From an uncultured archaeon (GTDB lineage: Archaea; Halobacteriota; Methanosarcinia; Methanosarcinales; Methanoperedenaceae), in NCBI GenBank assembly GCA_902386135.1, contig CABMIB010000081.1:1-64000 (forward strand): DNA of 64,000 nt. Reading direction: 5' to 3'. Positions 2,492 through 56,828 of this stretch are shown here, one piece after another (within the stretch, counting starts at the first letter, position 1; each line of letters opens with the position of its first letter). The position numbers were made by a program, and so were the translations under genes. The notes beneath the pieces are model-generated. The model had not been told where the DNA came from and ran no database searches. It saw only the letters and a program-made list of their open reading frames with translations.

Positions 2492-5272
2492 TCACCCCTT
2501 CAATTTAGCGCGTTTCATCAGGAGCGTGTTCGTCGTTACGGTAACGGAGCTTGCAGCCATCGCAGCAGCAGCAAGCGCCGGATTTATCAGGTACGGCGGA
2601 TGAGTGAAAGGATACAGGATACCCATTGCTATCGGGATGCCCACAGAGTTATAGAAGAAAGCCCAGAAGAGGTTCTGCTTTATCTTATTGAGCGTGAGTT
2701 TGCTAAGCTTGATCGCTTTCGCCACGTCCCGCACATCGTTCCTTATCAGGACTATCTGTGCAGATTCTATTGCCACGTCGGTACCGCTGCCTATTGCGAT
2801 CCCCACGTCCGACTGCATCAGCGCCGGGGCATCGTTTATGCCATCGCCCACCATCGCTACCTTTTTGCCTTCAGCCTGGAGTTTCTTGACCTCTGAAGCT
2901 TTGTCTTCCGGAAGCACCTCTGCCAGCACGGTATCAATGCCGACCTGCTTTCCGATTGCGTCCGCAGTCCTCCTGTTATCGCCTGTTATCATCGCCACAC
3001 TGTATCCCATTTTTCGCAGCTCATGTACAGCATCTTTAGAGTTCTCCTTCAGGGTATCCGCAACTGCGACTATCCCCATTAGCTCGCTGTCCAGTGATAC
3101 CAGCATTGCAGTCTTCCCGTCGTGTTCGAGTTTCTCCATCCTGCTGTCTGCGGGCAGTATGTCTATGCCATTCTCCATCATCAGCTTGCGTGTGCCGATC
3201 ATGAGCCTCTTTCCGCCGTATTTCACTTCCACGCCCCTTCCCGGTATCGCCCTGAACGCCTCCGCATCCGGGACATCAATGCCGCGCGCCTTTGCGCCTT
3301 TGAGTATAGCCTCACCGAGCGGGTGCTCAGACCCCTTCTCGGCGATTGCCGCAAGCTTGAGCACTTCGCTCTCAGTACCTCTGGTCGCTACAATGTCGGT
3401 AAGCGCAGGTTCTCCTTTTGTCAGGGTGCCCGTCTTATCAAATACTATGGTATCCAACTTCTGCGCTCTCTCAAGCGCCTCGCCACCTTTGATGAGAATT
3501 CCGTTCTCAGCGCCTTTACCAGTCCCGACCATGATAGCTGTCGGCGTCGCAAGTCCCACTGCGCAGGGGCAGGAAATGATCAACACGGTTATGGATATCA
3601 GCAGCGAGAACAGGAAAGGAGAAATTGTTCCCATCCCGTAAGTAACTGGCACATTGAAATATTCAAACCCGATGAAGAACCAGAAAAAGAACGTAAGCAG
3701 AGCCAGAGCATGTACTGCAAGGATGAAATGCCCTGCGACTATATCAGCAAGCTTCTGGATAGGCGCTTTTTGTGTCTGTGCGTTCTCAACAAGCTGGATT
3801 ATCTGTGCCAGAGCAGTATCTGCGCCGACCTTGGTGGCTGTGAATTTTATCATGCCTGTCTTGTTCATGGTAGCGCCGATAACTTCCGAGCCTGCGGTCT
3901 TCTCCACGGGTATGCTCTCACCTGTTATCATGGACTCATCCACAGCAGTAAGACCTTCAACCACCTTACCATCAACAGGTATCTTCTCACCCGGACGGAC
4001 GACCACGGTATCGCCTACCTTCACGCTCTCAACAGGTATTTCTTTCTCCTCCCCGTTCACAATGATTCGGGCGGTCTTTGCCTGCAATCCCATGAGTTTG
4101 CGGATAGCTTCGGAAGTCTTTCCTTTGGTGAGTGCCTCAAGGTAGCGTCCGAGAACTATGAACATAATGAGCAGGGCTGCGGTATCGTAGTATGTATGCT
4201 TGTATGCCTCGCCAAGATTAAAGAAGGTCCCGGCTACGCTGATGACATAGGCTGCTCCCGTTCCCGTTGCGATAAGCAGGTTCATATCCGTCACGCCGTG
4301 CTTCAGTCCTTTGTACGTACCTTCGAAGAACTGGCGCCCCGGGAATAACATTACGATAGTAGCAAGAATGAAAAGCACTATATCATTTTGGAAAAATTTA
4401 GGAGAGTAAGGTGCAAGCCATGCTATGTTGCGTCCCATATCGCCGAGTGATATCGGGACCGCGAGGATCAGGGCGATTATAAAATTTATCTTCTGCTTTT
4501 TTATCTCCGTCTCCCTGGCTCTCTGCTCCCTGTCCGCATCTCCCTTCACCAATTTCTCTGACGCTGTATAACCCACATCCTCCACAGCTTTTTTGATGCC
4601 AGAGACCGGGATGATCTCAGGGTCGTATGTTATCTTTGCCTGTTCAAGAGGGAAACTCACGTTAGCTGAGACGATGCCTTCTGTCTTCAGAAGAGCTTTC
4701 TCGATGTTGATGGCACACGATGCACAGTGCATTCCGCCAATCTTGAGCGTGATATCGCGCTTTACCACCCCGTATCCAATGTCGGTTACGGCTTTCTCCA
4801 GAGTTTTCGGGTTCACCTGTGCAGGGTCGTATTCCACCATCGCCCGCTCAAGCGAGAAATTGACCGAGACTTTCTTAACTCCATTTACCTTGTTAAGCGC
4901 CCGCTCGATGTTCTGGGCGCACGAGGCGCAGCTCATACCCGTAATGCCCAGGGTTAATTTTCTTAACTCGCTCGCTCCGGCTGTTTCTGCCCCGGTTACC
5001 TCTTTTACCTCAGGCGGGATAGCAGACTGTTCGGCCGGTAATGGAACCGGACATGCCTGTGGCTCTTCAAGGACCAGGTATCCTGTGTCTGCAATAGCCC
5101 TTTTTATTGTTTCAAGGTCTGTTATGGAAGTATCGAATGAGACTTTTACTTCGCCTTTTTTAAAATCGGCTTTTGCTTTTTTGACTCCTTTAACGCTAAC
5201 GGCAGCGTCATGGATCACTTTTTCGCAGTGCTCACACATCATGCCTTTGATTTTTATGATAACGTCTTCCAA
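2492..5272 (-). CDS. copA: Copper-exporting P1B-type ATPase CopA
   Basis: This 926-residue membrane pump exports Cu(I) at the cost of ATP. It has three N-terminal heavy-metal-binding domains, each with a CxxC (MMCEHC near residue 11, MSCASC near 114, MHCASC near 183). The membrane part carries the CPC metal-binding motif ([14 protein letters not shown]). The phosphorylation motif is [12 protein letters not shown], the nucleotide-binding HP is in GSEHPLG, and the hinge is [13 protein letters not shown] followed by LATP fits Cu(I) or Ag(I) rather than Zn or Cd. Three metal-binding domains are more than the usual one or two. A small membrane protein follows four bases downstream; the gene is divergent from the flippase-like gene at 5441. 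Confidence 0.96.
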
Positions 5273-56444: not shown

Positions 56445-56558
56445 GTATCATAGCCTGCTTTCAATAAAGAAATAGGTTACTGTGGATAGAAAACTTATCT
56501 TTTTATCCGAAAGCATCAGATTATATTTATACATAATGACATGAATTAAAGAGATTAT

Positions 56559-56828
56559 ATGAAAAAACTTTACGAAAGTTTTATCAAAAGAAGGGGTATG
56601 CGCAGCATACGCCTAGACTGGATAAAGCGAGGTGTCGCTAAACCTTTAAGAAAGGTTTATCAAAAACCGTCGCGCCGCTTTACTTCGCACACACGTATGC
56701 CTGCGGGCATACGTGGATACCGGATAAAGCGAAGTGTCGCTAAACCTTTACGAAAGTTTTATCAAACGAAGGGGTATGGTCACAAGACCATACCCCTAGA
56801 CCGGATAAAGCGAGGTGTCGCTTTATGA
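56559..56828 (+). CDS. Possible repeat-encoded upstream ORF coupled to argH
   Basis: An open frame of 89 residues runs through the hairpin array and ends in a TGA that overlaps the argH ATG (ATGA at 56825-56828). Its product is very basic and repetitive (AKPLRKVYQ, AKPLRKFYQ, IKRGVAKPL, IKRSVAKPL). The frame may be open only because the repeat unit is. Coupling to argH could nevertheless make it act as a leader ORF that sets argH translation. Confidence 0.3.
   Translation: MKKLYESFIKRRGMRSIRLDWIKRGVAKPLRKVYQKPSRRFTSHTRMPAGIRGYRIKRSVAKPLRKFYQTKGYGHKTIPLDRIKRGVAL
56566..56826 (+). repeat. Array of composite hairpin repeats ending in the argH start
   Basis: Three unit types alternate. Unit A, GGATAAAGCGAGGTGTCGCT, lies at 56620, 56722 (one change) and 56803. 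Unit B, an AAACTTTACGAAAGTTTTA-type hairpin, lies at about 56566, 56640 and 56742. Unit C is a stem that varies in sequence: GTATGC/GCATAC (56596-56610), CGTATGCC/GGCATACG (56694-56713), and GGGGTATGGTC/GACCATACCCC (56771-56796). The stems of C and B change on both sides together, so pairing is kept. The last unit A extends to ATAAAGCGA-GGTG-TCGCTTTAT (56805-56826), which includes the first two bases of the argH ATG. Confidence 0.85.
56812..56826 (+). promoter_or_regulatory. argH ribosome binding site inside a hairpin loop
   Basis: The Shine-Dalgarno-like GAGGTG (56812-56817) is mostly the GGTG loop of a perfect 9-bp hairpin (56805-56826), and the AT of the argH ATG pairs in the distal end of the stem. 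Spacing from GGTG to ATG is 7 bases, which is ideal. The same GAGGTG is repeated in the upstream copies. Translation of argH would need the stem to open. Confidence 0.55.

Follow-up and report, generated by a model that had tools for sequence, protein, structure and literature searches.

The stem-loop array in front of argH in the window (the whole 64,000-nucleotide stretch analysed here) is very probably one copy of a dispersed, modular and palindromic mini-cistron of Ca. Methanoperedens, which would insert at NTGA start sites and persist through translation coupled to that of the invaded gene. Its presence in some genomes and absence from others, together with its scattered copies, indicate that the element is probably mobile. 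A literature search found no paper describing it.

Inspection of the sequence bore out the preliminary description of three kinds of hairpin that alternate before argH, with stems differing from copy to copy. The array strand has a folding energy of -109.7 kcal/mol, compared with -70.7 kcal/mol for shuffles (z = -9.4). Its terminal A unit is a 9-bp hairpin (ATAAAGCGA/GGTG/TCGCTTTAT; -10.7 kcal/mol) around the inserted SD sequence GAGGTG, and the AT of the argH ATG sits in its stem. GAGGTG had been placed in the loop of this hairpin; the hairpin does stand at the argH start codon, but only part of GAGGTG lies in the loop. Two features had gone unnoticed in the preliminary description: the left edge of the array is itself an ATG, and from it the ORF listing gives a single frame of 89 codons spanning the entire array and ending in an overlap with argH (Table 1). 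Successive A units are 102 and 81 nt apart, both distances being divisible by three. The 16S 3' end was sought in this assembly and not found. An origin of the array from a tRNA or tmRNA was set aside, none being found within the window.

Table 1 Features of the argH locus, and positions of a second hairpin family at other loci.
Feature	Positions	Strand	Basis or remark
TATA-like promoter stretch TTATATTTATACA	56521..56533	+	Common to filled and empty argH loci; putative promoter
Original argH start-codon position, now mini-ORF start	56559..56561	+	Empty argH orthologues have the leader ...GAATTAAAGAGAATTT followed by ATGAATATA at the same place
Leader mini-cistron, 89 aa, MKKLYESFIKRRG...DRIKRGVAL and stop, read through all modules	56559..56828	+	ORF listing; 58/61 homologous inserts in frame and open
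Module B1, hairpin AAAACTTT-ACG-AAAGTTTT + ATCAAA	56564..56588	+	
Module C1, hairpin GTATGC-GCA-GCATAC	56596..56610	+	
Internal module A1, GATAAAGCGAGGTGTCGCT	56621..56639	+	
Module B2, AAACCTTT-AAG-AAAGGTTT + ATCAAA	56640..56664	+	
Module D (AACCGTCGCGCC...), containing C2 hairpin CACGTATGCC-TGCG-GGCATACGTG (56692-56715)	56665..56722	+	93% match over 147 nt to a copy on contig C41 of this genome
Internal module A2, GATAAAGCGAAGTGTCGCT	56723..56741	+	
Module B3, AAACCTTT-ACG-AAAGTTTT + ATCAAA	56742..56766	+	
Module C3, hairpin AGGGGTATGGTC-ACAA-GACCATACCCCT	56770..56797	+	
Terminal module A3, 9-bp hairpin, GAGGTG (56812-56817) around loop, 7 nt before argH ATG	56805..56826	+	
ATGA, overlap of argH start codon (56825-56827) and mini-ORF stop TGA (56826-56828)	56825..56828	+	NTGA here in 60/61 inserts
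argH (argininosuccinate lyase), 488 aa	56825..58291	+	
Hairpin family at nusA-like gene	L221 958-1160 (G022 contig C11); L225 880-1090 (G005 contig C70)		

The array is present at argH in 7 of 26 readable genomes. In many array-free genomes argH runs uninterrupted from ...GAATTAAAGAGAATTT into ATGAATATA, whereas filled loci have this leader, then ATGAAAAAACTTT...GAGGTGTCGCTTT, and only after that ATGAATATA; filled and empty loci diverge exactly at the ATG. Because argH of array-free relatives starts where the array begins, this comparison identifies the array as an insertion placed precisely at the argH start codon, giving the gene a second SD sequence and ATG. The same comparison shows an equally precise insertion at rpl14, filled in 6 of 27 genomes (GAGGTGGCAAA ATGAAAAACTTT...GAGGTGTCGCTTT followed by ATGAGAGG) and otherwise starting directly at GAGGTGGCAAA joined to ATGAGAGG, or at close variants. 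The sets of genomes filled at argH and at rpl14 differ; in G008, the closest relative at 92% ArgH identity, argH is filled and rpl14 empty. At one locus (L090) a native TTG start is retained at the left edge with an ATG at the right, and at two rpl14 loci (L086 and L194) two tandem mini-cistrons are joined by ATGA overlaps.

The preliminary description had also considered a mobile hairpin that landed on the native leader and replaced it. The landing comes close to what we found; the replacement does not, since the TATA-like stretch, leader and original start codon are all kept and now serve the mini-ORF, the insert bringing the second SD sequence and ATG. As the TATA-like stretch is common to filled and empty argH loci, transcription most likely starts before the array. 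Minimal inserts of 38 nt lie between both start codons at rpl14 (MKNFMNIKRGVAL) and at another gene of G014 (L193 and L163); apparently without B and C hairpins, they are probably deletion derivatives.

Only in Ca. Methanoperedens do modules of this kind occur, and there they occupy start codons in at least 27 gene families, rpl14, uL5, uL15 and RNA polymerase A'' among them. A search of 84,980 species genomes with an exact 22-mer whose last bases are ATG gave 68 matches, all of them in contigs bearing the title Methanoperedens (58) or that of uncultured archaeon LFW-280 (10). Matches occurred in 20 of 23 genus relatives and in none of 16 sister-family genomes, and the core 17-mer was absent from 2.9 million viral contigs. 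Further copies in the genome of the window lie ahead of rpl14, a BcrAD-type ATPase gene and a phosphoesterase gene (names by sequence inspection). A structured leader dedicated to the control of argH, as the preliminary description had proposed, is hard to reconcile with this distribution. Strong folding, covarying stems and an SD sequence within a hairpin would suit a riboswitch-like or protein-binding cis-regulatory leader evolved for this gene, but the modules precede at least 27 unrelated gene families, most relatives lack the array at argH, and module number and order vary. We consider such a leader highly improbable, and the empty sites and spread of host genes have already largely refuted it. 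An Rfam search of the array region gave no family match up to E = 1.

Other right-end modules leading into ATG (TAAAGGGGCGTAACCCTTTATGA, GTTAACCGGGACGTCGGTTAAAGATG) were seen at L039, L053, L222 and, in G000, on contig C41 near 5205-5240. A second hairpin family (TTTGATGAACCCGTCTAAAAAGGAGTGATTATCAATGGGTTCATCAAA) occurs at the start of a nusA-like gene (Table 1), with its own short ORF (MNPSKKE, then stop) and an SD sequence before the ATG.

Some sites were gathered by a pattern that itself ends in ATG, so the share at start codons is to be taken from an unselected search of five genomes. In this search, with internal units not counted and, for G005, module joints also excluded, terminal ends lay next to NTG in 3/3 cases in G000, 4/4 in G014, 14/15 in G001, 9/10 in G022 and 14/24 in G005. 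Units scattered at random with no link to start codons, which the preliminary description had named as evidence against its reading, are thus not the picture obtained: most terminal units adjoin a start codon, despite about 10 extragenic copies in G005. These extragenic copies, lying inside other palindromic repeats, would be accommodated by random insertion followed by purifying selection, with only start-codon and extragenic copies surviving. We nevertheless regard this as rather unlikely, given that in most genomes the insertion is exactly at NTGA and not elsewhere in leaders or 3' regions, that the terminal ends in G000, G014 and G001 adjoin NTG in the proportions above, and that one extragenic junction likewise has TGA on its left (CTGA followed by TACGAACTC in the empty palindrome).

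The intergenic palindrome CTCGTACGAACTGATACGAACTCACGCCGCCGGAGTTCGTACGAG is found in G005, G015, G009 and G001, numbering some 6 to 10 in G005 and G015, and the hairpin element sits in it at this CTGA/TACGAACTC junction without target duplication. No target duplication was seen in two extragenic palindromes carrying insertions; the 7-nt repeats ACGAACT and ATCCGTG, considered as candidate duplications, are part of the invaded palindromes, as their empty copies reveal. Most genomes have Y1 transposase genes, whether or not they carry the element, and element-like flanks were absent from all eight Y1 loci checked; no association of Y1/RAYT with the element was seen, and no mobilising enzyme was found.

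Insertion at start codons is accompanied by a constraint on reading frame. The right ends followed by NTG number 85, and in 61 of these the left NTG boundary is recognisable from sequence. Although these inserts vary in length between 38 and 340 nt, 58 of the 61 keep the frame and stay open up to the second start codon. These inserts are not independent, many copies being orthologous; counted by gene family, 26 of 27 are in frame (p = 7e-12 against one third), and counted by distinct insert length, 27 of 30. The right start codon reads NTGA in 60/61, whereas A follows ATG in 40% of ordinary nearby genes (p = 7e-23), and the left ATG is overlapped by the upstream gene as ATGA in 23/61. Extragenic copies are less constrained, with an in-frame length in 6/10 (Fisher p = 0.006).

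The B module carries the same constraint in its loop. With six As after the ATG, the triplets TAA, TAG and TGA are avoided in 11 of 12 loops; with five, the loop is AGG, AAG, GAG or GGG in 35 of 40 (Fisher p = 8e-7 for frame dependence), and the single loop violating stop avoidance precedes no gene. Judged by these letters, the loop varies with the number of As just as avoidance of stop codons would require. Depending on context, module B is read in three frames, giving the peptides KNFRKVLSK, KKLYESFIKR and KPLRKVYQK. Because the peptide changes with the frame, it is openness rather than peptide sequence that the copies indicate to be conserved, and the mini-ORF peptide itself appears unimportant. 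Since three of the 61 inserts are out of frame, including the argH insert of G008, a close relative, coupling is not essential at every site. At the G008 locus (L030, 1437-1606) the first mini-ORF stops in the C hairpin loop at TTGTGA; a GTG overlapping this stop could possibly restart the frame into argH, making a two-step chain.

Covariation of the stems extends beyond the window, with 14 different C-type stems across the genus, all of them perfectly paired; several positions show two or three kinds of base pair. Loops are found in both orientations (GAA/TTC, CGCA/TGCG and GCAA/TTGC), which leans towards hairpin inversion or copying. The preliminary description had taken compensatory change to mean either a selected structure or a copying mechanism, and the covariation is compatible with either; together with the two-way loops it would fit structure selection, hairpin inversion or both. 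Template switching or hairpin inversion that copies one arm onto the other, producing covariation independently of selection on RNA structure, has in our judgement an even chance of being correct. Repeated inversion would give perfect stems of differing sequence and loops in both orientations, and perfect stems are kept also in extragenic copies. Arm copying leaves the start-codon position and the maintenance of frame unexplained, but is compatible with a coupled mini-cistron rather than an alternative to it. The clearest selected property of the element is the maintenance of frame.

We propose that the native promoter, leader and start codon stay in place to the left of the inserted mini-cistron, where leader and start codon would now initiate the mini-ORF. 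The insert adds a hairpin-rich segment, open from the native start codon, whose final hairpin carries an SD sequence (GAGGTG); the new start codon behind this hairpin shares bases with the stop of the insert's own ORF (ATGA). A ribosome on the mini-ORF would melt the SD hairpin and end at the TGA, and argH could then be translated by termination-reinitiation or by newly exposed initiation. Experiments in the archaeon Haloferax, and work in E. coli, have established termination-reinitiation at ATGA overlaps (PMC6728339). The invaded gene is thus probably still translated, through coupling. With the SD hairpin melted and ribosomes handed on to the host gene, insertion would therefore be nearly transparent to expression and could persist even in essential operons.

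Some copies of an insert selfish by origin might since have become translational attenuators, setting expression of the gene behind them through a basic mini-peptide or ribosome stalling. The conserved basic C-terminus RIKRGVAL and the presence of copies at the same genes in several species are consistent with this, but the A hairpin and its SD sequence account for this C-terminus, the peptide is otherwise not conserved (module B being read in different frames), and the host genes have no pathway in common; we therefore think attenuation improbable. A broader form of the coupled mini-cistron, which we put forward tentatively and with less than even confidence, is a structured mobile family that targets NTGA starts, perhaps by recognising SD-ATG, stacks or nests in frame, and rebuilds the translation start of essential genes including those for ribosomal proteins and RNA polymerase.

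The argH array illustrates how a dispersed element may enter the site in an operon under the tightest constraint, an essential gene's start codon, at what seems a small cost, probably because translational coupling is preserved. The family offers dozens of natural pairs of insertion and empty site for the study of termination-reinitiation, and many Methanoperedens operons hold small ORFs likely to have been missed by annotation.

Among known systems the element most resembles the mycobacterial interspersed repetitive units (MIRU; Supply et al. 1997). A 2025 review describes these as apparently mobile repeats at start codons with an ORF coupled at -4 nt, the NTGA overlap being proposed to keep the burden of insertion low (PMC12548453). 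It too is a short dispersed repeat, present at many start sites within one genome, with its own ORF coupled to the host gene: the ORF stop overlaps the host start by -4 nt (NTGA in 60/61, open and in frame in 58/61), and insertion at NTGA/DTGA is indicated by the empty and filled sites of argH and rpl14 and by the A after the start codon (60/61 against a background of 40%). It differs in being archaeal, strongly palindromic and built of several exchangeable hairpins, with the SD sequence in a hairpin. MIRUs, to our knowledge, were originally described as lacking dyad symmetry, whereas the present element is made of perfect hairpins throughout. On these shared features it appears to work like a MIRU, yet because it is archaeal and palindromic, as well as modular, we do not file it as one; it would carry the MIRU concept over to archaea and to elements that are palindromic and structured as RNA.

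Rickettsia palindromic elements (RPEs) are likewise palindromic repeats, and they too preserve an open frame on entering a coding context (PMC10969869). RPEs, however, join the host protein, whereas the present element creates an ORF of its own, which terminates at the host ATG. Intergenic palindromes of the REP/BIME, BOX and MITE types share modular hairpins, dispersal and extragenic copies; we know of none with a mini-ORF coupled at start codons, and no link between the present element and RAYT was seen at the eight Y1 loci. Natural uORF coupling and synthetic bicistronic designs also rely on a hairpin-hidden SD sequence that becomes accessible when a short leader ORF ending at ATGA is translated, but the leader described here is a dispersed repeat rather than a gene-specific one.
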